Translations under genes and position numbers: made by a program
In this document: positions 30,718 to 45,558 of the stretch, piece by piece
Position numbering within the stretch: position 1 is the first letter of the stretch
Layout of the letters: the number at the start of each line of letters is the position of its first letter
Notes under the pieces: model-generated
What the model was told of the DNA's origin: nothing
Databases searched by the model: none
Seen by the model: only the letters and a program-made list of their open reading frames with translations
From: Gammaproteobacteria bacterium
GTDB lineage: Bacteria; Pseudomonadota; Gammaproteobacteria; SZUA-140
Reading direction: 5' to 3'
Assembly: GCA_020847075.1 (NCBI GenBank)
Contig: JADLCS010000058.1
Location: 17,074 to 81,073, forward strand
Length of the DNA stretch: 64,000 nucleotides

Positions 30718-31512
30718 ATGAGCGATAAGAAAATGAAATTGAGCCTTTTCCTGGGTGGCTTGTTAGCCATGGGGGCGATCGGTACGGCCTCCGCCCACTT
30801 TCAGATGATTATCCCGTCGGATGACATGGTCAGGCAGGATGAGAATCGCAATCTGGATATCGACGTGATGTTCTGGCATCCCTTTGAAGGTCATGGGATG
30901 GACATGGTAAAGCCGGCACAGTTCGGTGTTCTCGTCGGCGGCAAGAAAGTGAGCCTGCTGGATAGCCTGAAACCCAACAAATTCAAGGGCACGGACGGCG
31001 AGACGCACGATGGATTCAAGGTCTCCTATGAGCTGAAGTCAAACTGTGATCACACGTTCTATATCGAGCCGAAGCCTTATTGGGAGCCGGCTGAGGAATC
31101 TTTCATCATTCACTACACCAAGGTCGTGGTGAACGCCTTCGGGCTGGAGGAAGGCTGGGGCGATGAGGTCGGTCTCAAGACCGAGATCGCGCCTTTGACG
31201 CGTCCCTATGGCATCTACGCCGGCAACGTGTTTCAGGGGGTGGTCAAGGTCAATGGGAAGCCCGCGCCCTTTACCGAAGTCGAGGTTGAATACTACAACA
31301 AGGACGGCAAGCTGAAGGCGGCCGCCGATCCCATGATCACCCAGGTGGTGAAGGCGGATGCCAACGGTGTATTCACCTATGCGATGCCCAGGGCCGGCTG
31401 GTGGGGTTTTGCCGCGCTGAATGAAGATGAGAATACCATGCAGCATGATGGCAAGGACTATCCGATCGAGATCGGGGCCGTGCTGTGGGTTCGCACCCAT
31501 GATATGAAGTAA
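30718..31512 (+). CDS. DUF4198 domain-containing secreted protein (NikK-like nickel-uptake component)
   Basis: Signal peptide ending TASAHFQMIIP; DUF4198 pattern; first gene of a NikKLMQO-type operon. Confidence 0.85.
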   Translation: MSDKKMKLSLFLGGLLAMGAIGTASAHFQMIIPSDDMVRQDENRNLDIDVMFWHPFEGHGMDMVKPAQFGVLVGGKKVSLLDSLKPNKFKGTDGETHDGFKVSYELKSNCDHTFYIEPKPYWEPAEESFIIHYTKVVVNAFGLEEGWGDEVGLKTEIAPLTRPYGIYAGNVFQGVVKVNGKPAPFTEVEVEYYNKDGKLKAAADPMITQVVKADANGVFTYAMPRAGWWGFAALNEDENTMQHDGKDYPIEIGAVLWVRTHDMK

Positions 31513-31547
31513 GGTCTGCGTCACTCACATGCCATTATGAGGTCCTC

Positions 31548-32267
31548 ATGTCTACTTTCGTTGTTCAGATGAAAGGAGCAGGAGTAGAAGGTGCGCCCCG
31601 TTTCTGGGGCGCACTTTTCAGCGCGTTTGAATTCCGTTTCCTGCTGCTGCTTGCCGGCGTTATCGCCCTGTCTCTCGCGTCCAGCCATGCCTACGCGCAT
31701 AAGGTGAACATGTTTGCCTATGTCGAGGGCAACAAGGTCATGATGGAAGGGTATTTTGCCGACGGCAACAAGCCGATGAACTGTGATGTCATTGTGACCG
31801 ATCCCGACAAAAATGTTCTGGTCAAGGGATTGACGGATCGTGAGGGAAAGTTTTCATTCGACATCCCGAAGATCACCGATCTCAGGATCGTTCTCAATGC
31901 CGGGATGGGGCATCGTGCCGAGTTTGTCATCTCACGAGATGAATTGACCGGTGTCAGCCCGGCCGCCGAGTCGGGGACGGAGGGCGATGCGGGTACCGTG
32001 GAGAGTGACGAGACGGCGGGGACGGATGCGTCGAGCGACGTCTCATCGCTATCTTCCGGGGTATCGAATGCCAGTGAGGCGGCCATTCGCAAGGCGGTTG
32101 CCGAAGCTAATGTGCCTTTGATGCGGGCGATAGAGGAACTGAAGGAAGGTGTAAACTTTGCGAACATCGTGGGCGGGATAGGTTTCATCTTCGGCATCGT
32201 CGGGATATTGTTTTACGTCAAGGCGCGCAAGACGCTCGATTCCCGATCTTCCGCTGCGGCAAAGTGA
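31548..32267 (+). CDS. NikL-like membrane-anchored protein of an ECF nickel transporter
   Basis: HAYAHKVNMFAYVEGNKVMMEGYFADG, one C-terminal TM helix; sits between NikK-like and CbiM-like genes. Start uncertain. Confidence 0.8.
   Translation: MSTFVVQMKGAGVEGAPRFWGALFSAFEFRFLLLLAGVIALSLASSHAYAHKVNMFAYVEGNKVMMEGYFADGNKPMNCDVIVTDPDKNVLVKGLTDREGKFSFDIPKITDLRIVLNAGMGHRAEFVISRDELTGVSPAAESGTEGDAGTVESDETAGTDASSDVSSLSSGVSNASEAAIRKAVAEANVPLMRAIEELKEGVNFANIVGGIGFIFGIVGILFYVKARKTLDSRSSAAAK
31591..31618 (+). terminator. intrinsic-terminator-like hairpin at the nikK/nikL junction, inside the annotated N-terminus of nikL
   Basis: GTGCGCCCC-GTTTCT-GGGGCGCAC-TTTT, perfect 9-bp stem. Confidence 0.6.
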
Positions 32268-32342
32268 ATTTTTCTCCATTTTCATACAGGGGTTGCCGAT
32301 AAGATCCCTATGAATTAACGATCACGGTCCTGGCAGGATCCT

Positions 32343-32987
32343 ATGCATATATCAGAAGGCGTATTGAGCGCTCCGGTGTTGATCACCGGCTTTGTCGGTA
32401 CTGCTGTACTTGCCGCAGTCACCATGCGCAAAATGGATCTGGAGGAAATCCCCAAGATTTCCGTCATCACATCGGTATTTTTCGTCTCCTCACTCATTCA
32501 TGTCCCCATCGGGGTCACCAGCGTCCATTTGATCCTGAATGGTTTGGTCGGGGTTATCCTCGGATGGCGGGCGTTTCCCGCAGTTCTGGTCGGATTAGTG
32601 TTGCAGGCGATACTGTTCGGGCATGGTGGGGTGACTGTCATCGGTGTGAACTGCCTGATGATGGGCGGCGGGGCACTGATGGCCTATGTGGTGTGGCAGC
32701 AGCGTCATCACTTCTCACTCAAGCGCAAGGAGATGATTTTCGGTGCACTGGCTGGTGCGACCGGTGTCGGATTCTCCGGCATTGTCCTTGCCCTGGCGCT
32801 CGCGACTACCGGCGAGGCATTCCATGCGGTCGCGGGGGCGGTGCTCATCGCGCATATCCCGATAATCATCATAGAAGCAGGAGTCGTGGGTGCCTGCGCC
32901 GAGTTCCTGAGCCGTGTCAAGCCCGAAATCCTGGCCGGTCAACGGCCGACGCCAAACCCGGCCGGTTCGGCCGATGTTGCGACGTGA
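32343..32987 (+). CDS. CbiM/NikM-family cobalt/nickel ECF transporter S component
   Basis: MHISEGVLSAPVLITG with N-terminal Met-His; polytopic. Confidence 0.93.
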   Translation: MHISEGVLSAPVLITGFVGTAVLAAVTMRKMDLEEIPKISVITSVFFVSSLIHVPIGVTSVHLILNGLVGVILGWRAFPAVLVGLVLQAILFGHGGVTVIGVNCLMMGGGALMAYVVWQQRHHFSLKRKEMIFGALAGATGVGFSGIVLALALATTGEAFHAVAGAVLIAHIPIIIIEAGVVGACAEFLSRVKPEILAGQRPTPNPAGSADVAT

Positions 32988-33030
32988 AGATGCTCCACGG
33001 TGCTTATCCTGATGTCCTCCCGGGGATTCC

Positions 33031-33819
33031 ATGGCCTTAGATATAGATCGATATTCCAGCATTGATTCGCCCATAAGCCGCTGGGATCCGCGGTTCAAGA
33101 TCTTTGCCCTGGGGATACTGATAATCTCCATCGCGCTGCTGAAGACCATACCCGTGGCGATCACTGCACTGGCGATCGCCGCGGTGATCATCGGGATGAG
33201 CGCCTTGCCACTGCATTTTATTTCTCATGGCTTATCCTTCATCCTCGTTTTTCTCGTCCCGTTTTTTTTCATCATGCCCTTCAGTTATCCGGGTGAAGCC
33301 GCCTTCCGTGTCTTGGGCCTTCCATTCGCTTGGGAGGGATTGAGGTATGCGACGCTGATCTTCACGAAGGCGCTGGCGATCGTTCTCGTCTCTTTTTCCA
33401 TATTCGGTTCGAGTCGATTCGACGTTTCCATGATCGCGCTGCAAAAATTGAAATGTCCCAAGATCATCGTTCAGATGCTGCTGTTTACATATCGCTATAC
33501 CTATGTATTTCTGGAAGAAATGCATCGCATGCATACCTCGATGCATTCCCGTGGGTTCGTTGCGGGCACGAATGCGCAGACATTACGCATCTACGGAAAT
33601 TTTATCGGGACTTTGCTGGTGCGCAGCTTTGAGCGCACGGATCGCGTGTATAAAGCCATGCTGTCTAAAGGCTATCAGGGTGAACTGCACTCTATGGTCA
33701 AATTCAAGTCGTCTTCCCCGGACATTCTTAAGGGGCTAATTGTGATAGGATTGGCGCTGGCCTTGTTATTGTCGGATTACGGCGGGATCTTCACGGCCGC
33801 GGAACAGGGCTGGTATTAG
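33031..33819 (+). CDS. CbiQ/NikQ-family ECF transporter T component
   Basis: DPRFKIFALGILIISIALL; RSFERTDRVYKAMLSKGYQGE. Confidence 0.93.
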   Translation: MALDIDRYSSIDSPISRWDPRFKIFALGILIISIALLKTIPVAITALAIAAVIIGMSALPLHFISHGLSFILVFLVPFFFIMPFSYPGEAAFRVLGLPFAWEGLRYATLIFTKALAIVLVSFSIFGSSRFDVSMIALQKLKCPKIIVQMLLFTYRYTYVFLEEMHRMHTSMHSRGFVAGTNAQTLRIYGNFIGTLLVRSFERTDRVYKAMLSKGYQGELHSMVKFKSSSPDILKGLIVIGLALALLLSDYGGIFTAAEQGWY

Positions 33820-33856
33820 AACAATAAACTTATCCCTTTGATCTTGCGAGGATAGG

Positions 33857-34951
33857 ATGTCAGAGCGCGTCCTTGTTGAAGCCGATAACCTGCATTTCTC
33901 CTATCCTGACGGGCACAAGGTCCTGAAGGGGATTTCCTTCAGGATCAAACGGGGCGAGAAGGTCGCGCTGATAGGACCGAACGGCGCGGGAAAATCCACC
34001 CTGATGAGCCATCTGAACGGGGTGCAACTGGCGAGTTCCGGGCGTATCGTCATCGACGGGATTCCGGTCAGTAAAAACAACCTGAAAGAAATTCGCCGCA
34101 AGATCGGGATCGTGTTCCAGGATCCCGATGATCAGCTCTTTTGTCCGACGGTTTACGATGACGTTGCATTTGGTCCCTTGAATCTGGGATTGCCCGAGCA
34201 TGAGATTACCTCCCGTGTCCAGGAGGCCTTGTCCGTGGTCGGTCTGGAGGGGTTTGATCAGCGTTCCTCGTTTCACCTATCCTTCGGCGAGCGCAAGCGC
34301 CTCGCATTGGCTACGGTATTATCCTATCAGCCCGAGATCCTGGTGTTCGATGAGCCGTCGACCAACATGGATCCGATGAATCGCAGGAATCTCATCAATT
34401 GGCTCAAGAATTCGGATAAAACCCTGCTGCTCTGTACACATGATCTCGATATCGCCCTCGAGGTATGCGATCGTTGCCTGTTGCTCACCGACGGCCGTAT
34501 CGAGAGCGACGGGCCGACCCATAAGATCCTCTATGATCGAGGGCTGCTCGAGAGGAACAAGCTTGAGATGCCCCTCGCGCTCATGACTCATGAGTTGTTG
34601 CACGATATTCTGGCCGAACAGGACATGGACGAGGAGCACCGGCATATAATCGGGAAATTCCTGCATGCCCATCGTCATGCCCATGGATCCGATGCGCACA
34701 TCCACGTCCATCTGCATGCGCATGAACACGGCCACGAACACTTGCATGAGAAAGTCGACGAGTCGCACTTCCATGAAGTGGACGAGCGCCACCATGAAGT
34801 ATCTCATGATCATATCGCCGTGCCCCATTCCCACGGTGGTGGAGAGGGGCAGCACGACCATGACCACGATCATGGTCATCATCATGACCATTCCCACCCT
34901 CACGATCATGATGGAGAGGATACCGGGCATAAGTCACGGGATGCAGGCTGA
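33857..34951 (+). CDS. CbiO/NikO-family ECF transporter ATPase with His-rich C-terminal extension
   Basis: [40 protein letters not shown]; residues 261-358 contain 35 His by count. Confidence 0.95.
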   Translation: MSERVLVEADNLHFSYPDGHKVLKGISFRIKRGEKVALIGPNGAGKSTLMSHLNGVQLASSGRIVIDGIPVSKNNLKEIRRKIGIVFQDPDDQLFCPTVYDDVAFGPLNLGLPEHEITSRVQEALSVVGLEGFDQRSSFHLSFGERKRLALATVLSYQPEILVFDEPSTNMDPMNRRNLINWLKNSDKTLLLCTHDLDIALEVCDRCLLLTDGRIESDGPTHKILYDRGLLERNKLEMPLALMTHELLHDILAEQDMDEEHRHIIGKFLHAHRHAHGSDAHIHVHLHAHEHGHEHLHEKVDESHFHEVDERHHEVSHDHIAVPHSHGGGEGQHDHDHDHGHHHDHSHPHDHDGEDTGHKSRDAG

Positions 34952-35204
34952 GTCCGTTGTCGGAGGGGGATTCGGGTGCTTGCCAGGAGTGGCTTGAGCG
35001 TCCGCGATCCCGGGCTGGCGCTGAAACAGACTGGAAAAGCTCATCGCTGCGGCGGCGCGCCTCGGGTGGAGGGGTGGCCGTGGCGACGCCCGCTGATTCT
35101 TTCAGAACATTCTCGACGCGTCGGACGCATGGGGCATGTCATACCCCTGACGTCAACCGTAATGTCCCATCCCTTGTCGGAATGGCATCATTTGATGTCC
35201 AGGG

Positions 35205-35498
35205 TCAGCGATATTTCAGGATTTCCATGAGCTCGTCGATGATCTCGCCGGCGTCCCCCCGGCTCCCCGCGGTTACCACGTGATCATGGAGATGGCTGCG
35301 CAGGATGATGTCTCCGACCTTCACCATGGCGCCGTCGACCGCCCTGATCTGCTTGATGACATCGACGCAATAGACTGAATCGACTTCCATCATCCGTATG
35401 ATCCCTTCCACGTGCCCCTTGATGGAGCGCAGCCGGGCAATGGCTTCCGAGCGGGTGGCGGGATTCAGCTGCAGGTTCTGGTGGCAACCGGCCATCAC
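35205..35498 (-). CDS. CsoR/RcnR-family metal-sensing transcriptional repressor
   Basis: ATRSEAIARLRSIKGHVEGIIRMMEVDSVYCVDVIKQIRAVDGAM...IILRSHLHDHVV; family fold with C...HxxxH ligands. Confidence 0.9.
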   Translation of the reverse strand: MMAGCHQNLQLNPATRSEAIARLRSIKGHVEGIIRMMEVDSVYCVDVIKQIRAVDGAMVKVGDIILRSHLHDHVVTAGSRGDAGEIIDELMEILKYR

Positions 35499-35692
35499 GC
35501 GACTACGGCTGAATAGCCCGCTTCACGTATGGCCGTGATAACGGCCTGGGTGTCGGGTGAGCCTTCTATGACGGCGGTTCCATTGTCGAGGCGGATCTCC
35601 TTGATTTGCTGGACGCCGGGCACCGCGCGCAGCGCCTTTTCAACCGAGTTGACGCAGTGATTGCAGCTCATGCCGGTAATTTTGACGATCAT
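35495..35692 (-). CDS. heavy-metal-associated (HMA) domain metallochaperone
   Basis: MIVKITGMSCNHCVNSVEKALRAVPGV: MxCxxC motif, 65 aa. Confidence 0.92.
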   Translation of the reverse strand: MIVKITGMSCNHCVNSVEKALRAVPGVQQIKEIRLDNGTAVIEGSPDTQAVITAIREAGYSAVVA

Positions 35693-35710
35693 GGCCTTTT
35701 GCTCCTTATT

Positions 35711-35728
35711 CCACCCCAGGTGGGGTGG
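35711..35728 (-). promoter_or_regulatory. CsoR-type operator 1
   Basis: CCACCCC-AGGT-GGGGTGG perfect inverted repeat just upstream of the HMA gene. Confidence 0.65.
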
Positions 35729-35762
35729 GGTAGTTGAGATGAAAATATCATCCCTGTTTTTC

Positions 35763-35781
35763 TACCCTGGGACAAGGGGTA
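35763..35781 (-). promoter_or_regulatory. CsoR/RcnR-type operator 2
   Basis: TACCC-TGGGACAAG-GGGTA inverted repeat, G/C-tract operator style. Confidence 0.55.
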
Positions 35782-35799
35782 AAATTATTACCTTTTAAT

Positions 35800-35860
35800 C
35801 ATCGGCCTAATGATCCCGCCTGGCGGGACACCGGCGCCGACGAGGCGGCGGAGGCCGATG
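35800..35860. other. multi-stem inverted-repeat element (possible structured RNA)
   Basis: Outer stem CATCGGCC/GGCCGATG; inner TCCCGCC-T-GGCGGGA hairpin; second inner GC-rich hairpin CGCC-GACGA-GGCG. Confidence 0.5.
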
Positions 35861-36023
35861 TCCATATTCGCTCTTATTTTTACAGTAATGAATATTCATA
35901 CTATGTATCTGATTGTTGATTGAGATATTCTTTCAAAGTCGGATAATCTTTGCGCTGGGATCGCGAGCGGGCGTTTTTACAATGCCAAAACATAAACTTA
36001 ATTAACTTTTAGGAAAACAGATT

Positions 36024-36485
36024 ATGGAACGCATCACGATGTCGCTTGATTCTGTGCTGGCGGATTTATTCGATAAATTCATAGCCGAACACGGTTATAC
36101 CAATCGTTCCGAGGCGATGCGGGACCTGATCCGCCAGCAACTCGAAAAGGAGCAACTGGAAAAATCGGGGGATGGTTATTGTGTCGCGAGCTTGAGCTAT
36201 GTATACAACCATCACGAACTGGAACTCGCCAGCCGCATTACCGAGGCCCACCACGATCATCACGAACTGATGCTTTCCAGTATGCATGTACACCTTGATC
36301 ATGATAATTGCTTGGAAATCACGATCATGCGTGGACCTGTCGGGATTGTCAGAAATACCGCGAATGCCATCATGGCGGAGCGGGGTGTACGTCACGGCAA
36401 GCTGAACATGGTGCCGATCGATATCAGCGAGGTCAGCCATTCCCATGGTGGGCAACCCCATGTCCACAGCCGCCCGTTGACTTGA
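36024..36485 (+). CDS. nikR: nickel-responsive transcriptional regulator NikR
   Basis: RHH N-terminus MERITMSLDSVLADLFDKFIAEHGYTNRSEAMRDLIR; ACT-like YNHHELELASRITEAHHDHHELMLSSMHVHLDHDNCLE. Confidence 0.96.
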   Translation: MERITMSLDSVLADLFDKFIAEHGYTNRSEAMRDLIRQQLEKEQLEKSGDGYCVASLSYVYNHHELELASRITEAHHDHHELMLSSMHVHLDHDNCLEITIMRGPVGIVRNTANAIMAERGVRHGKLNMVPIDISEVSHSHGGQPHVHSRPLT

Positions 36486-37249: not shown

Positions 37250-37530
37250 AGCGCGTGGGGGCTCGTTTGCCGGCCTCGTGGCAGGCAAGTTGTCTTTCCG
37301 GCTTTTTTACCGATATAGACGGTAGTGGATCAGGCTATGGCGCGGGCATGGTCCGAAATGGACACGGTGAGAGCCATATGCTAGCATCAAGCCATTGGTT
37401 TTATTGCGTCTATTTGTAGAGTGTGGGTTGGGACGGGGAGGTTGATCGAGGCATCTCCGTCGTCGCAAGGTAGCGAAATAGTTCACCCCATGCGTTTTTG
37501 ACAGGCCACGGTGCTTGGAGGATTCAGAAG

Positions 37531-38496
37531 ATGGTTAATCGTGCAGCTGTGAAAATGATGCCGAAGCTTTATCAAGCCGGTGGCGCGACCTTGTTTCTGC
37601 TGGTCGCCGGCCCGACGCAAGCACTCCCGGTGTTCGATAACTGGACCGTTGCCAACGGCAACGTCAGTGTGAGTTGTCCCGCGGGCTTTACCTGCGAAAC
37701 CCTGACCACCGGCGACGGGTTTGCCCAGGTGCAGTGGGTTGAAACCGCGACAGGAGACACGTTCATCCAGACGATCATCACGGATCAGGGGGCAGGAGCC
37801 GGCGGCGGTACGCCGTCTTCAGGCCTTGGCTACAGCGACGAGAGTTTCATCATGCTGGGCGGCTCCAACGGCATTTCCTCGCGCCAGCACTATCTCCAGG
37901 ACGATACGGCGACTACCGGTACGATCTTTGAGAATACGACGGCGCTCAACACCGGCTGGGCGCAGACCAATCCGACCAGTCCGGATATGGACGTCACCCA
38001 GACCCTGACCGTCGATGCGACTCCGGCGGTGACGGGCGATGAGTTTACCAATGCCTTCGAGATGCACCTCATTCATGATGCCGGCGGAACGACCACGGGC
38101 AGCAGCATCACCATTTCCCAGGATTCGGGGCTGGGGAACGGGGTCGATACGTCCACCGACGCGCAGAAATTCCAACTGGTCCATTTGCAGGGAAGCTATG
38201 TCGCCACCGGTTCGAGCATCACGCTTGATCCCACTACCACGGCGAGCGGCGGAACCGTGGCCTGGGGGGCAGGCGACGACATCATGATTCGCTGGATCGG
38301 TCAGGGGATAGATCTCGGCGCCCAGGGCACGGCGATTTTCGGATTCCAGGGTATCACGAACAATACCACGGACGAGGAGGCCACGACCTTCTCCACGACC
38401 AGCGCCGGCATAACGGTGGATGGCTCGGACCCGCAGGGCTACGGTACGCCGTTTGACTGGGATACCATCTTCGGGGCCACGCCGCCTCAGCTATAG
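37531..38496 (+). CDS. secreted hypothetical protein
   Basis: RBS GGAGGA before the ATG, signal peptide ATLFLLVAGPTQALP, Thr/Gly/Asp-rich mature region. Confidence 0.65.
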   Translation: MVNRAAVKMMPKLYQAGGATLFLLVAGPTQALPVFDNWTVANGNVSVSCPAGFTCETLTTGDGFAQVQWVETATGDTFIQTIITDQGAGAGGGTPSSGLGYSDESFIMLGGSNGISSRQHYLQDDTATTGTIFENTTALNTGWAQTNPTSPDMDVTQTLTVDATPAVTGDEFTNAFEMHLIHDAGGTTTGSSITISQDSGLGNGVDTSTDAQKFQLVHLQGSYVATGSSITLDPTTTASGGTVAWGAGDDIMIRWIGQGIDLGAQGTAIFGFQGITNNTTDEEATTFSTTSAGITVDGSDPQGYGTPFDWDTIFGATPPQL

Positions 38497-38548
38497 CGCC
38501 CGCTGGCTGGCCGTTTTTCTGGCCGCGCCGCCATGTCTAGTCCCATCG

Positions 38549-38583
38549 AGAAGAGAAGGGTAGCGCCCTTCTCTTCTTTTTTG
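38549..38583 (+). terminator. Rho-independent terminator
   Basis: GAAGAGAAGGG-TAGCG-CCCTTCTCTTC followed by a T run. Confidence 0.9.
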
Positions 38584-38646
38584 TCTCGCGACAGCTTGCC
38601 GCCTTGTTAAGAGATTTGTAAAAGTTGTGTACTGTAATACCTGGCT

Positions 38647-38665
38647 TGTGTAACATTGTTATACG
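38647..38665. promoter_or_regulatory. candidate operator B for the RHH regulator
   Basis: TGTGTAAC-ATT-GTTATACG, resembling site A at 39821. Confidence 0.45.
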
Positions 38666-38844
38666 ATGATGTCCGGAGGCGCTATTTTAAGCGGGCGAGC
38701 CTCTGATCACCGGAGTCGTTGGCTGTTTGCAAGGCCGGCCGGATCCCCGTCGCCTGCGGTGCGATTCACTTCCATATCTTCGCAGCCCGTGCCCGGACGG
38801 ATGTCATGTCGAATCGATTCGATACAGGTCAGAAAGGCGTAAAC

Positions 38845-39720
38845 ATGAGCAGGACTGAGGCCGTCATGAATCTTCGTAATCATCGCTGGTATTCCTACGC
38901 CCACGCCATGATCTGCATGGCAGGGGCTGCGGTTCTATGCATATCGATTGCGTCTGCCGAGGAATCCGAACCTGAACTGACGGGGAAACAGATCTTCGAG
39001 CGGTGCGGCAACAAGTATCCGGGCGACGACCAGCAGGGAAAGTTCACGGTCATCCTTCAGGACAAGGAAGGAAAGGTCATGAAGAGCGAGTACCTGAGAT
39101 ACTGGAAGGATTACAAGGGCAAGGACGATGTCGCCGACAAGATGCTTTTGTTTACTACTTATCCTCCGGAGGCGAAAGGCTCCGCGTTCATGCGAGTGGC
39201 CTATAGCGAGCACGACAAGCCGGTGGATCAATGGATATATCTCCCCGCGCTCAAAAAGATCAGAAGGGTTTCGATCCGCGATCTCGGTGACAGTTTCCTG
39301 AATTCCAATTTGACGTACGCCGACGTCAGCCGGAGGGCGCTGGAGGACGACGACCATAAATATCTGGGTACGCGTCAGGTCGACGACGCCGTGTTCTATG
39401 TCGTCGAAAGCACGCCCAAGGAAGCCAACCCAATCTACGGCAAGAGGGTCTTCTGGTTTCTGAAGACGAAAAACTGGGACGAATGCATCAATACCCGGAT
39501 CGATTACTATGACAACAGCGGCGAGTTGATAAAAGACCAGTTCATCAAGTGGCAGCGCATGGGTGACGCCTGGGTATGGGATCGCGTGCTGGTCAGGAGC
39601 CGCCGCACCCTCAGCGCCTCGATTTTTCAGCTGAGCGAGATCAAGATCAACGCCGGAGTCGATGACGAGCTGTTTTCGGCCAGGTCTCTGGAGCATGGGC
39701 CGGCCGCGGCCATGGAATAG
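38845..39720 (+). CDS. outer membrane lipoprotein-sorting (LolA-like) protein
   Basis: Signal peptide; SEYLRYWKDYKGKDDVADKMLLFTTYPPEAKGSAFMRVAY, DQWIYLPALKKIRRVS, DDHKYLGTRQVDDAVFYVVESTP. Confidence 0.85.
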   Translation: MSRTEAVMNLRNHRWYSYAHAMICMAGAAVLCISIASAEESEPELTGKQIFERCGNKYPGDDQQGKFTVILQDKEGKVMKSEYLRYWKDYKGKDDVADKMLLFTTYPPEAKGSAFMRVAYSEHDKPVDQWIYLPALKKIRRVSIRDLGDSFLNSNLTYADVSRRALEDDDHKYLGTRQVDDAVFYVVESTPKEANPIYGKRVFWFLKTKNWDECINTRIDYYDNSGELIKDQFIKWQRMGDAWVWDRVLVRSRRTLSASIFQLSEIKINAGVDDELFSARSLEHGPAAAME

Positions 39721-39820
39721 GCGCAGATCCGCGGATCCGCGCATCCTCGTGTTCAGGTGCTGGTTTCTGTGCGATGGTCTTGTGCCGGCCTCCGTGCATG
39801 GCCGACCCCTTGTTTGACTA

Positions 39821-39840
39821 TGTATAACTTTTGTTATACA
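39821..39840. promoter_or_regulatory. candidate operator A: perfect palindrome overlapping a putative promoter
   Basis: TGTATAAC-TTTT-GTTATACA; TTGACT lies just upstream and TATACA is inside the palindrome. Confidence 0.65.
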
Positions 39841-39883
39841 TTTTAGGCCTCGAAACAATCATGGGCTAGGGGGGGATGATTTT

Positions 39884-40327
39884 ATGCAAGATTTCGCGAG
39901 GCAGATGAGGGAACTCGGAAGAAAGCAGGGGCGCGAGATGCGGGACCAGGCGCGGAGCGCCGCGATGAAGCGGAAAGAAGAATATCTGGGTGCGCGCGTT
40001 CCCAAGGATCTGCGCGAGAAGGTCATTGCAAAAGCGGATAGTCTGGGCATCCCAGTCTCCATTCTCATCAGGAATATCCTCGAAGAGGCATTCAATGGCC
40101 AGGTCGTCCCGCGCGAGATCCAGGAGAGGCGTCGGGGCGAGACGTCCGTCCGGTTGAACGTGAAATTCCCCGATGTCATAGGATGGGAGAGGATAACCCT
40201 GAATAAGGATGTGGCATGTTCGAGCTGTTCGAAGATTTTATCCGCCGGAGGCATCGCCGCATGGGGGGTGTCGGGCTCGAGGGAAGATCGCGTGATTCTG
40301 TGCGAGAAATGCCGGGAATCCGCCTGA
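39884..40327 (+). CDS. small RHH-like protein with C-terminal zinc-ribbon cysteines
   Basis: YLGARVPKDLREKVIAKADSLGIPVSILIRNILEEAF (RHH-like); CSSC...CEKC zinc-ribbon pattern. Confidence 0.65.
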   Translation: MQDFARQMRELGRKQGREMRDQARSAAMKRKEEYLGARVPKDLREKVIAKADSLGIPVSILIRNILEEAFNGQVVPREIQERRRGETSVRLNVKFPDVIGWERITLNKDVACSSCSKILSAGGIAAWGVSGSREDRVILCEKCRESA

Positions 40328-41823
40328 TCCGGGCGGGAAGTTTCGAAAAGATCGTATGGGGGGGCTTATTGCTTCTGTTGTCGTCGTCCGGAAGCGCCGC
40401 GGAGGGCACGCAGGAAATCACGGACATAGAGCAGTTGTTTCATGATGACGCCCCCATCTCGGCCAGCGTCCAGGCGGGAACCTCGGATTGGAGGGACAGG
40501 CTTTCCCTCGGCGGGTATATAAAAAACGAGACCGCCTACCGGCTCGACGAGCCGAGATCGATAACGAAAATACGAAACATCTTTCAAGTGAATGGGGACT
40601 ATACCTTCAGCCCGACCCGCAGGCTGGGGTTTTCCGCCTGGGCTTATCACGACCTTGCCTACGATCTCTTCGATTACGAAACGATATCGGCCAGATTCGC
40701 CCGCGATGACGATAAACCGCTCGTATTCGTCAATGATCTCGAGCGCAAGAAGGACTCCCCGGTCGCGGAACTGAGGGAGTTCTATCTCGACATCACCTCG
40801 AGCAAGGTGGATGTCCGTCTGGGGAAGCAGATCGTCGTTTGGGGCGTACTCGAGGGGATCAGGATCACCGACGAGATCAATCCCCTGGATTTCCGGGAGC
40901 TCATCCTTCCCGACCTCATCGACTACAGGATCCCGCTCTGGACTGCGAAGGTCGACGTCTACAGCGGGGATGACAGTTATCAGATTCTTTGGATTCCGGA
41001 CGTCAAGTTTCACAAACCCGCGCCGCCGGGTTCCGAATGGGAACTGCTCCAGGACGTCCCCGACACAAAGAAACCGAATTCGTTTACCCTGAACAACTCC
41101 GAAGTCGGGATCCGCTATTCCACCACCCTCCTCGACGCGGAGATCTCCCTCAGTTATTTCTACACCTGGGACGATTTTCCCGTCGTCTATCGCTCCGCGG
41201 CCATCAATTCCGCGCTTGATCCGGTATTTTTCCCGACCTACACGCGTATAAACATCTATGGGTTTACCGGTGTGAAGCAGATGGGGGAGGGAATCCTGAA
41301 GGGTGAGCTTGCCTATGTGCCGGATAAATTCTTTGGGCTGCAAAACGATACCGATCGGGATGGGGACGGTTATCTGGACAGCCAGGGCGAACTGCAGAGA
41401 AAACATATCCGGTGGGGGTTGGGCTATGATTTCACCGCATTCGGCGCGGATTTTTCGCCCGCCGTGTCGCAATGGATCATCCTCGACCATGACAGCAAGC
41501 TCATCCAGGATAAGTTCGATACCTCGCTCACCCTGTTCATCCGCAAGCCGTTCCCCGAACAGGCGGCGGTTTTTCAGCTCCTCGCCATCGGTCTCGTCAA
41601 TCTCCGGGAACTCTATCTGAAGCCCAAGGCCACTTTCTCGATCACGGACCACTTCCAGGTCGCCGCTGGATTCGACATATTCACCGGGGCCAGGTCGAAA
41701 CTGGGCTCGACGGGTGGAGCGAATGTCATCACCAGCACCGAGGCGCTGGAGCAGAGCGCGCAGTTCTTCGGGAATTTCAACAACAATGACCGCGTATTCG
41801 CCGAGTTCAAATATACATTCTGA
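40309..41823 (+). CDS. DUF1302-like outer-membrane beta-barrel protein
   Basis: Signal peptide IVWGGLLLLLSSSGSAAEG; REFYLDITSSKVDVRLGKQIVVWGVLEGIRITDEINPLDFRELILPDLIDYRIPLW; ends in KYTF. Confidence 0.8.
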   Translation: MPGIRLIRAGSFEKIVWGGLLLLLSSSGSAAEGTQEITDIEQLFHDDAPISASVQAGTSDWRDRLSLGGYIKNETAYRLDEPRSITKIRNIFQVNGDYTFSPTRRLGFSAWAYHDLAYDLFDYETISARFARDDDKPLVFVNDLERKKDSPVAELREFYLDITSSKVDVRLGKQIVVWGVLEGIRITDEINPLDFRELILPDLIDYRIPLWTAKVDVYSGDDSYQILWIPDVKFHKPAPPGSEWELLQDVPDTKKPNSFTLNNSEVGIRYSTTLLDAEISLSYFYTWDDFPVVYRSAAINSALDPVFFPTYTRINIYGFTGVKQMGEGILKGELAYVPDKFFGLQNDTDRDGDGYLDSQGELQRKHIRWGLGYDFTAFGADFSPAVSQWIILDHDSKLIQDKFDTSLTLFIRKPFPEQAAVFQLLAIGLVNLRELYLKPKATFSITDHFQVAAGFDIFTGARSKLGSTGGANVITSTEALEQSAQFFGNFNNNDRVFAEFKYTF

Positions 41824-41860: not shown

Positions 41861-42799
41861 ATGACAAACTTGCCGGCTGGATTCAGAAAACGATCGGTCT
41901 TCGTCTTTGTTCGACGGGTATCGCTCATTCTGGGTGTATCCCTGCCCCTGGCCGCCTATGCCGATTCCGAGCAGAAGCGGTGGAGTGTCTCCCCGATACT
42001 GGGGGTTCACAGCCCCAGGATGAAGCTGCTCAACGAGGGTGAGTTTCGTTCTCCCTTGCCGGGCCGTGGCCGGATCATATTCGAGGACAGCGGCGAGAAT
42101 ACCAACTACGACTTTGTGATAGATAATCGGCTTCCCGCCATAAAATACGGCACCGAGGCGGGTATCGAGTTCAAATTACTGCTGGATCCGCGGTACTCCC
42201 TGATACTGGGCGCCAGCGGCTGGGAGGGAGTTTCCACCTCGGCGGTTCAGACGGAGATCCCTTTCCAGGGTTCCCTGACGCCGGCGGGCTACGAGAGATC
42301 CGGGAGTATCTCCTATTTCCAGTATTATCTCGGTGTGCAACGCATCCTTATGCAGAAACCCAGGAAATATGACATCTACGGCCGGATAACCCTCAACGAA
42401 GTGCTCGACGTGGACTACAAAGAAAACATGGTGTTCGCCTTCCAGGGCAGCGGCGGTGACACCTTCAAGAGGATCATAGAGATGGAATCCCAGGCGACCG
42501 GGCTTCTCATGTTGAACCTGGGCGCCGGCGGCGAATATTTTCTGAGGAGCTGGATATCGCTGGGGGTCGATCTGGGTTACACCCTGAGCGCCGACAGGGT
42601 CAGGCTCGGGAACGCCACGCTGAAATCGGATATCCAGGAAGAAGACAACCTCAATTTCAGGACCCCGGTACAGCTTGATGCCAATAATGAATTGACCTAT
42701 CTTGCGGAGGCATCCTCGTTCGATGATGCGAGCTACCGGAAACTCGAGCTCGGATTCGATGGCTGGCGGGCGTCGTTCCGCGTCAATTTCTATTTCTAG
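41861..42799 (+). CDS. outer-membrane beta-barrel hypothetical protein
   Basis: Signal-peptide-like N-terminus, alternating amphipathic strands, C-terminal RVNFYF. Confidence 0.65.
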   Translation: MTNLPAGFRKRSVFVFVRRVSLILGVSLPLAAYADSEQKRWSVSPILGVHSPRMKLLNEGEFRSPLPGRGRIIFEDSGENTNYDFVIDNRLPAIKYGTEAGIEFKLLLDPRYSLILGASGWEGVSTSAVQTEIPFQGSLTPAGYERSGSISYFQYYLGVQRILMQKPRKYDIYGRITLNEVLDVDYKENMVFAFQGSGGDTFKRIIEMESQATGLLMLNLGAGGEYFLRSWISLGVDLGYTLSADRVRLGNATLKSDIQEEDNLNFRTPVQLDANNELTYLAEASSFDDASYRKLELGFDGWRASFRVNFYF

Positions 42800-42843: not shown

Positions 42844-45558
42844 GTGCGCCCCTTGACCGCCTTTCTCCGGGTTTCATCGCTATCTGCGCGCCTGGTGTCG
42901 ATCGTCATCCTGGGCCTGTATTTCACCAATGTGGCCCTGGCACAGGGCGAGCCCCCGGATCGATCGAAGGCGGATCTCATGCTCGAGTCGGGAAAGTCTC
43001 TGCTGAAGACCGGCCGGACCGACCAGGCGATAGAAAAGCTTCGGGAGGCCGCAAGGCTGGATGAAGATAACTCCGATGCCTACTATTTTCTCGGTATGGC
43101 CTATGCCAGGGCCAGAGACACCGCGCAGGCAGTTAAGGCCCTGGAGCGCGCCGTATCGCTCGGGCCGGACAATGTCGAGGCACGTTATCAGCTCGCGGGC
43201 CTCTACGAGGCTCAGGAACTGTTGGACAAGGCGGTCGAGGCGTATTCCGGCGTTATCCAGTGGGCCGATCCGAGCGGGGAGCTGTTCGCGTCGAGCGTGA
43301 AGAATCTGCGTTATCTGGTCGCGACGCAGCACGCCAGACGGAACGAGATGGATCAGGCCATGATTCTGTTCGGCGAGCTTGCCGAGACCTATCCGGGCGA
43401 TGCGCGGCTGGCGTACAGCGCGGGTGTGGCATACATGATCAAGGGCCGGATGGGCGAGGCGCGCAGCCTGTATGAGCGGGCCATTCGTATCGACCCTGCC
43501 TATATGAATGCGTATTTGAATCTTGCCACTGTGGACGAGGCGCAGGGGGATCTGGACGCGGCGGTAGTCAATCTGAGGCATATCGTAAAGTTCGGCCCCG
43601 ACAGCCCGGCGGCGCTGAAGGCGGGTGTCAGACTCGATATCCTGGAAGCCAGGATGCTGACGCGCAGTGGCAATATTCAGGATGCCGTGTCTGCCTATGA
43701 GCGGGCGCTCGAGACCGAACCCTCGAACAATGTTGCGTTGAGGGCGCGGCCCGATCTGTATCGCCGACTGGGTGACAGGGAGGGTGAGCGCGGCGCCTAT
43801 GAGGCGCTCATCGCGCAATATCCCGATGATTTTTCCGCCCGCAACAGGCTGGCGGAATGGTATCTTGCCGAGCGCCGCTATGCCGAGGCGTATGACCAGA
43901 TCTATGCGGTGATCGACGGGCAGGAAGAAGGGGAACAAAGGGATATCGCCAGGCGCCTGCTCGCGCAGATGCTCTCCACCGACGAGGGAAAGGCGATCAG
44001 CCGGGCAAAGGCGGCGGAAAAACTGGCGGGGCTTCAGGCCCGGATCGAGGAGAATCCCGAGGACGCAGCGGCCCTCAAGGAGCTGGCCATCCTGTATTCC
44101 CGTCAGGAGAAATATCAGGACGCGGTGACCCTGCTGGAACGGTTCGTGGGACTACATCCGGAAGACGAGTCCGCGCACTCGATGCTCGCAGTCCTCTATG
44201 ACAAGCTGGGCCGATTCCCGGATTCCGTGCGTGAATCTCTGTGGCTGATTTCCAGGACGAATGACGAGGCGCGGGCGGCGCGCTACGCATCGGCGATGAA
44301 GCTGGTGAACGCCAAGCGCCTGTTCGTCGAGGGGGATCTGCGGGCGGCAGGGCAGGAATTCTCCGAAATCCTGTCCCTGGATCCGGGAAATTCCGTCGCC
44401 TACTTCTATCTCGGCCTGATCTATGCGCGCGAGGATGATATCGCGAGCGCCGTCGATGCCTACAAAGAGGTCATACGGCAGATTCCGACCCATGTCAGCG
44501 CCAGGTTCAACCTCGCCTACAGTTACGAGCGCCTCAATCGCGAGGAAGACGCGATAGACGAATACCGGAAGATCCTGCAGGCGAATCCTCCCCCTGAGAT
44601 CGAGCAGACCGTCAAGCTCAGGCTCAAGAATCTGCAAAGGAGAATCAACGGCGTCACGGTCGGCGTCGGCTATTCCTTCGCCTACGACAGCAACAGCAAT
44701 CTGAGCGACACGGACCCGGCGGAAGAGCTGAGGTCCGATTTATCCCTGAATCTTTCCTATCAATATAAAACCGAGCGGGGATACCGCTGGCGCTTGTCGG
44801 CGCAGCCGACCTATTCCAATTACCACGAGGGCCAATACGATTATCTGAATTCGAGCGCGACCCTCGCGGCCAGTACGATCAGGGATGCATTGACACTGGT
44901 CGGCGGTTATACGTATCGGACCACCGACGGCATACTGGTCGAAAGCCGGCTCAGCCGCATGCATACCGTGTTCGGTGAGATCCTGTCACGCCTGAGACTG
45001 CCCAATATACTCAGGAGAGGGGAGACGGTGTCCAGCGGCCTGTCGTTCAACCTGTCCTACAGCGACTTCGATTCTTCCAGCAGCCCTTTCTTCAGTTCAT
45101 ATACCACCGCGGGTGGCGTCTCGCTGAGCCAGCAGGCGACGGCCACGGATACGCTCAGGGCGGGGTATACCTATGTCATCAATGACAACAAGGAGCTTGT
45201 CGGCAGCGATTACGCCTACACAAGTCATGCATTATCGGCCGGACTCGAGCATTCCATGCCGTGGGGAAGCGTCAACCTGACGCTGGGGCTCGCCATTTTC
45301 GATTACTCCAACCTGGATTCCTTCTCCCAGTTCACCAGCCGGCGCAGGAATATCAGAAACAATCTCGCGCTCGGCCTGACCTACAGGTACAGGCCGGATA
45401 TCAGCCTGTTCGCCTCTCTGGCCTGGGCGGATAACCGCTCGAATCTTCCGGTCGGATTCATTCTGAACAGCGAGGATATCATCGAGGGACAGCAGAGTTC
45501 CTCGTTGAGCGACTACCGCCGGGAACTGCTGACGACGGGGATCAATCTCAGATTCTGA
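42844..45558 (+). CDS. TPR-repeat protein fused to a C-terminal outer-membrane barrel
   Basis: N-terminal TPRs (AIEKLREAARLDEDNSDAYYFLGMAYARARD) followed from about residue 600 by GVTVGVGYSFAYDSNSNLS...INLRF strands. Confidence 0.8.
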   Translation: MRPLTAFLRVSSLSARLVSIVILGLYFTNVALAQGEPPDRSKADLMLESGKSLLKTGRTDQAIEKLREAARLDEDNSDAYYFLGMAYARARDTAQAVKALERAVSLGPDNVEARYQLAGLYEAQELLDKAVEAYSGVIQWADPSGELFASSVKNLRYLVATQHARRNEMDQAMILFGELAETYPGDARLAYSAGVAYMIKGRMGEARSLYERAIRIDPAYMNAYLNLATVDEAQGDLDAAVVNLRHIVKFGPDSPAALKAGVRLDILEARMLTRSGNIQDAVSAYERALETEPSNNVALRARPDLYRRLGDREGERGAYEALIAQYPDDFSARNRLAEWYLAERRYAEAYDQIYAVIDGQEEGEQRDIARRLLAQMLSTDEGKAISRAKAAEKLAGLQARIEENPEDAAALKELAILYSRQEKYQDAVTLLERFVGLHPEDESAHSMLAVLYDKLGRFPDSVRESLWLISRTNDEARAARYASAMKLVNAKRLFVEGDLRAAGQEFSEILSLDPGNSVAYFYLGLIYAREDDIASAVDAYKEVIRQIPTHVSARFNLAYSYERLNREEDAIDEYRKILQANPPPEIEQTVKLRLKNLQRRINGVTVGVGYSFAYDSNSNLSDTDPAEELRSDLSLNLSYQYKTERGYRWRLSAQPTYSNYHEGQYDYLNSSATLAASTIRDALTLVGGYTYRTTDGILVESRLSRMHTVFGEILSRLRLPNILRRGETVSSGLSFNLSYSDFDSSSSPFFSSYTTAGGVSLSQQATATDTLRAGYTYVINDNKELVGSDYAYTSHALSAGLEHSMPWGSVNLTLGLAIFDYSNLDSFSQFTSRRRNIRNNLALGLTYRYRPDISLFASLAWADNRSNLPVGFILNSEDIIEGQQSSSLSDYRRELLTTGINLRF

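Follow-up and report, generated by a model that had tools for sequence, protein, structure and literature searches.

Conserved tandem TGT-N3-ACA boxes at the promoter of a ribbon-helix-helix gene: putative operators of an envelope cluster in Gammaproteobacteria

The promoter of a small ribbon-helix-helix (RHH) gene in the window, i.e., the whole stretch of 64,000 nucleotides that was analysed, carries an array of tandem 9-bp boxes that is widely conserved upstream of the orthologous genes and is not a product of chance. Our analyses suggest, with a probability of about 0.78, that these boxes are the operators of the protein encoded immediately downstream, an Arc/CopG-like RHH repressor with four cysteines, one dimer of which would occupy each box.

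Tandem boxes over the RHH promoter

A sequence-only reading of this DNA had reported a perfect 8+8 palindrome 44 bp before the RHH gene and a related one upstream of a LolA-like gene. Both are present: TGTATAAC-TTTT-GTTATACA occupies positions 39821-39840, 43 bp 5' of the ATG at 39884, and TGTGTAAC-ATT-GTTATACG occupies positions 38647-38665. Neither has a second match in the window at up to three mismatches (shuffle means of 0.03 and 0.00, respectively). The symmetry is real and not fortuitous, but it is better described as a tandem of 9-bp boxes of the form TGT-N3-ACA, a unit that is its own reverse complement in form and repeats every 10-11 bp. The model of a single 8+8 palindrome was rejected because the arms stand 3, 4 or 5 bases apart depending on the site, because the conserved letters are the TGT...ACA of each box and because a third in-register box is found in at least 16 promoters. 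In the window, the three boxes lie in register on the forward strand with starts at 39811, 39821 and 39832, that is, at steps of 10 and 11 bp. Box 1 (TGTTTGACT, 39811-39819), which the earlier reading had overlooked, is defined by its sequence, the box periodicity and the promoter alignment; box 2 (TGTATAACT, 39821-39829) and box 3 (TGTTATACA, 39832-39840) are the left and right arms of the reported palindrome. Upstream of the LolA-like gene, the pair consists of TGTGTAACA (38647-38655) and, one 10-bp step further on the same strand, TGTTATACG (38657-38665); it was delineated from its sequence, its uniqueness in the window and a pair scan. The more degenerate element noticed before this pair does exist (TGTGTACTGTAATAC, 38626-38640); its best box, TGTAATACC at 38633, lies 14 bp from the next one and is thus out of register, and we did not count it as part of the LolA operator.

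The array fills a sigma-70-like promoter on the forward strand, TTGACT-17-TACATT (39814-39842), whose -35 hexamer (39814-39819) is contained in box 1 and whose -10 hexamer (39837-39842) is overlapped by box 3. The TTGACT and TATACA hexamers proposed previously are both there, but the pair given here is better spaced and matches the promoter consensus at 9 of 12 positions. Since a single promoter-like site in 1.6 kb is close to what shuffled sequences yield (0.8), our promoter call rests on conservation: the boxes coincide with TTGACA-17/18-TACAAT in loci of several genera (L021, L022, L059, L060, L061, L062, L063), while another group of upstream regions places a -10 hexamer TATAAC inside a box.

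Conservation upstream of orthologues had been named as the point on which the palindromes could fall, and at the RHH gene it came out in their favour in many genera. Pairs of boxes spaced by 10 bp are present in 26 of 41 upstream regions, against 17 of 41 at 11 bp and 17 of 41 at 21 bp, and shuffles give 0.03 regions per spacing. When up to two mismatches per pair are allowed, a pair at 10-12 bp is found in 34 of 40 regions (about 38 of them distinct, as some genomes were fetched twice, e.g., L033 and L118); four others have a pair at 19-23 bp only, and no pair is seen in two, including L034, which a contig end truncates. In a box matrix derived from 28 upstream sites, TGT and ACA are almost invariant and the middle is loosely A/T. 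Among 13 orthologue loci outside this matrix, of which only about eight are fully independent because some belong to the same or close genomes as training loci (e.g., G071, G313, G188, G187, G294), the best upstream pair scored at least 13.7 in ten, a value reached in less than 1% of Markov shuffles. Of the pairs with scores above 15 in 552 kb of loci, nearly all are located at RHH promoters or precede related envelope genes; two matches came from the reversed control. Four of the 369 genomes of the class contain the exact palindrome with a gap of 3-5, and three of these carry the RHH gene: two matches are at an RHH promoter, one is intergenic in an RHH genome (G354, locus L066) and one is inside a coding gene. 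Exact matches at L037 and L131, inside coding sequence, were taken as chance. In the orthologues furthest removed (G303, G197, G055, G209), the boxes are variant and differently spaced, and the position of the array relative to the promoter varies between lineages while the boxes persist.

The RHH protein, its probable operon and comparable systems

The presumed repressor is a protein of 147 residues (39884-40327, forward strand), taken to be Arc/CopG-like from its translation, profiles, alignment and AlphaFold model. Orthologues were retrieved in the relatives, in Gammaproteobacteria MAGs and, by a profile search of the 369 class genomes, in 22 of these; the weakest of the profile matches (G363) is partial and is not counted as confirmed, leaving 21 confirmed RHH genomes. 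An alignment of 26 sequences shows G36, R38, V58-S59, L61-I62-R63 and the cysteines C112, C115, C140 and C143 to be invariant, so that all 26 carry the four metal-ligand-type cysteines CxxC...CxxC of a zinc ribbon, a pattern that does not imply the identity of a metal and that is accompanied by weak profile matches. The family matches no Pfam or NCBIfam model above cut-off; below threshold, its members resemble CopG_antitoxin (22 of 26), Arc (4 of 26) and RHH_5 (4 of 26). The AlphaFold monomer has helices at 41-54 and 58-70, which correspond to both RHH helices, and lacks the inter-subunit strand, which a monomer might not show; a structure search with this model returned nothing at E <= 0.001, the C-terminus bearing a weak, non-significant resemblance to small zinc fingers. 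Variants of the boxes did not covary clearly with residues of the beta-strand (Y34F).

The likely start of the DUF1302 outer-membrane barrel gene (40309-41823, ATG chosen at 40309) overlaps the end of the RHH gene at 40327, and the genes for a predicted outer-membrane protein (OMP) of 312 residues (41861-42799) and a TPR protein of 904 residues (42844-45558) each follow within about 50 bp, all on the forward strand. Given this overlap and these short gaps, the four genes probably share one promoter. The LolA-like periplasmic protein gene, a possible second target, precedes them on the same strand (38845-39720, ATG chosen at 38845), and the order LolA-like, RHH, DUF1302, (RND), OMP, TPR is kept among relatives, with some gaps at contig ends; in those relatives examined that lie beyond the closest, an RND/MMPL pump gene separates DUF1302 from OMP, and it is absent from this cluster in the window. 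At the conserved loci no toxin gene of the kind that accompanies CopG antitoxins in type II toxin-antitoxin systems adjoins the RHH gene, whose conserved neighbours are the LolA-like, DUF1302, RND, OMP and TPR genes. Further upstream, a gene for a predicted secreted protein of 332 residues (37498-38496) is followed by a terminator-like hairpin (38548-38578); this protein has no Pfam match, and many relatives also encode it ahead of the LolA-like gene.

Arc, CopG and MetJ are RHH repressors that bind tandem operators whose sub-sites are about one helical turn apart. The locus described here shares with them a small predicted RHH protein adjoining its putative operator and short sub-sites, conserved at about one turn from each other, over its own promoter; an alignment by eye also recovers an Arc-like motif around R-x-P and G-x-x-V. 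It differs from them by the additional C-terminal four-cysteine domain, by the TGT-N3-ACA box, by a protein for which no family model reaches its cut-off and by its setting, an envelope export cluster instead of a plasmid, phage or methionine system. The neighbouring genes recall AmeABCD, an HAE3-type RND cluster of Castellaniella that exports apolar monoterpenes, in having a DUF1302 outer-membrane protein, a LolA-superfamily periplasmic protein and, for the majority of relatives, a pump of the RND/MMPL type (PMC6394551); here, by contrast, the cluster includes a gene for an RHH regulator and encodes an additional OMP and a TPR protein, and in the window it is devoid of an RND gene. Our literature searches found no paper with both 'ribbon-helix-helix' and 'DUF1302', nor one that connects the TGT-N3-ACA box with a protein of the RHH type. 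Systems of this kind are known; it is the regulator family, the box code and the four-cysteine domain that are undescribed in the libraries searched.

Candidate binders of the boxes

We infer that the RHH protein itself is the binder, and the live rival is NikR, another RHH protein encoded in the window (36024-36485). If NikR bound the boxes, the envelope operon would belong to the nickel regulon, leaving the small RHH protein with some other role. NikR is found in all 21 confirmed RHH genomes of the class sample as opposed to 42 of 369 genomes overall, and its gene is often syntenic with the RHH gene, the two frequently lying within 10 kb of each other. The half-sites of NikR, GTNNNAC, lie about 21 bp apart (PMC7055735, PMC545781), as in the E. 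coli site GTATGA-N16-TCATAC (PMC7055735), and boxes 1 and 3 are separated by the same distance. No NikR-like match in the window is better than 39812-39839, which has two mismatches, although the 12 matches obtained at up to three mismatches are at the level of shuffles. As NikR was present in 22 of 22 RHH genomes searched, its absence could not be used to separate the two binders.

The spacing of the boxes, the repeats near nickel genes and the genomes that carry NikR alone are the reasons why we prefer the RHH protein and regard NikR as an improbable binder. The dominant step is 10-11 bp, unlike the spacing of NikR sites: these need two half-sites 20-22 bp apart and no site in the middle, and pairs at 21 bp do exist in the 17 of 41 regions given above, but 10-bp pairs dominate and at several sites occur alone. 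Two types of NikR can be distinguished, one 60-82% and the other about 40% identical to the NikR of the window. The second type belongs to the nickel loci of G071, G354 and G146, which have different repeats of the known NikR kind (GTGNNAC/GTAACAC-like) at nickel-gene promoters; the first is that of G294, with perfect GTATGA-N15-TCATAC repeats near nikR; yet the boxes at the RHH genes are alike throughout these genomes. These repeats were found by pattern only, and in some genomes, including the window, no NikR site was found at nickel genes. Finally, perfect 10-bp pairs are absent from 21 genomes with NikR and without the RHH gene, compared with seven sites in 14 RHH genomes, although this comparison is small. 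The RHH protein has no match to the NikR_C domain, which the separate NikR gene possesses.

The NikR gene closes a run of nickel/cobalt ECF-type genes in the window (30718-36485: DUF4198, NikL-like, CbiM, CbiQ, CbiO, then NikR), at whose promoter no clear NikR palindrome was found. The co-occurrence of the two regulators makes a functional link of the RHH gene to nickel possible, shared ancestry or synteny being the alternative.

It is very improbable that some other, unlinked transcription factor binds the boxes and that the array before the RHH gene reflects the control of the operon by that factor. Palindromic A/T-rich sites are common to many regulators; nevertheless, the array constantly accompanies the RHH gene in different families, and tandem steps of one turn are typical of RHH proteins. 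That the palindromes are mere promoter sequence or chance symmetry, with no regulator at all, is hardly credible: the boxes do overlap the -35 and -10 hexamers, which would be conserved in any case, but the TGT/ACA letters and their 10/11-bp period go beyond promoter hexamers, exceed what shuffles yield and persist while the array shifts relative to the promoter.

Putative regulon and mode of action

Sequence evidence strongly supports the earlier proposal that the RHH protein regulates its own gene and, through it, the barrel operon: the footprint is conserved in many genera, the promoter is overlapped by the boxes, and the DUF1302 gene begins before the RHH gene has ended. The proposed co-repression of the LolA-like gene is supported in part. 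The pair upstream of this gene scores 21.2 in the window, and in a distant genome (G071, locus L132) a LolA-like gene located far from the regulator is immediately preceded by a perfect pair; strong pairs also precede the gene before LolA in three relatives (L028, L029 and L030), with a weaker one (14.9) in a fourth (L025). Most LolA-like orthologues, on the other hand, have no pair directly upstream, and we rejected a LolA operator as a general feature; separate control of the LolA-like gene would thus be patchily conserved.

Trans arrays, the further targets for which the sequence-only reading had suggested a scan, were found in other genomes, and the LolA-like site of the window accords with them. 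In the 2.5 Mb assembly to which the window belongs, scanned by patterns only, the 39821 palindrome was the sole full match. Arrays stand upstream of second DUF1302 genes that have no accompanying RHH gene in G006, G009, G010 and G012 (in G009, no RHH gene was found in an incomplete assembly), and a perfect pair precedes a gene for a large secreted DUF5122 beta-propeller protein, divergent from purD, in G013 and G014, two related genomes (L067, 5801; L068, 2777). The second LolA-like/DUF1302 cluster of the own genome (G000:C88, L098), whose DUF1302 protein is 57% identical and which has no RHH gene, was rejected as a target, for it has no array (best score -2). The intergenic match in G354 is an exact gap-5 palindrome (L066, 7998-8018) between RfaH/NusG-like and tRNA-methyltransferase-like genes; G354 carries the RHH protein elsewhere, and this site is possibly an extra target.

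We propose that one RHH dimer would hold each TGT-N3-ACA box through its beta-ribbon, and that two or three dimers would sit side by side, 10-11 bp apart on the same face of the helix, presumably in a cooperative manner. In the window the boxes cover the -35 hexamer, the spacer and the edge of the -10 hexamer (39811-39840), and bound protein would exclude RNA polymerase. We infer both the sign of regulation and the cooperativity; repression is the natural reading because a protein on the boxes would block the polymerase. The RHH protein would accordingly repress its own operon (RHH, DUF1302 barrel, OMP and TPR) and, through the trans boxes, the LolA-like gene, second DUF1302 clusters and the beta-propeller surface-protein gene. 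The inducer could plausibly be a metal or thiol signal, sensed at the CxxC...CxxC site. The wider proposal, in which a new family of RHH repressors senses metal or redox/thiol through its four-cysteine site and governs a LolA/DUF1302/RND exporter regulon linked to nickel homeostasis, we consider unlikely as a whole. NikR was described in a 2019 review as the sole metal-regulated member of the RHH family (PMC7055735), and, if the proposal were true, this protein would be a second metal-linked RHH regulator besides it. NikR has the RHH fold predicted here, occurs in the same genomes and recognises GTNNNAC-like half-sites about 21 bp apart; the present protein differs in the lack of NikR_C, in boxes repeated at 10-11 bp and in being encoded by a separate gene. 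Given the four-cysteine domain and the close association with NikR across genomes, a metal or redox signal is open to direct test. The TGT-N3-ACA code at 10-11 bp and its predicted regulon now characterise a family without a Pfam or NCBIfam match above cut-off, and they offer a handle on what the DUF1302/LolA-like/RND clusters export and when this export is needed.

In two lineages, the operator is extended to an inverted repeat that is almost perfect and whose arms measure 20-25 bp (L028 near 5946, L029 near 5963, L058 near 9976, and upstream of the RHH gene in L113 and L115). The sequence of the arms differs between species while their complementarity is kept, and the right arm enters the ribosome-binding region of the RHH gene, for which reason an RNA reading through from the preceding gene could hide this region.
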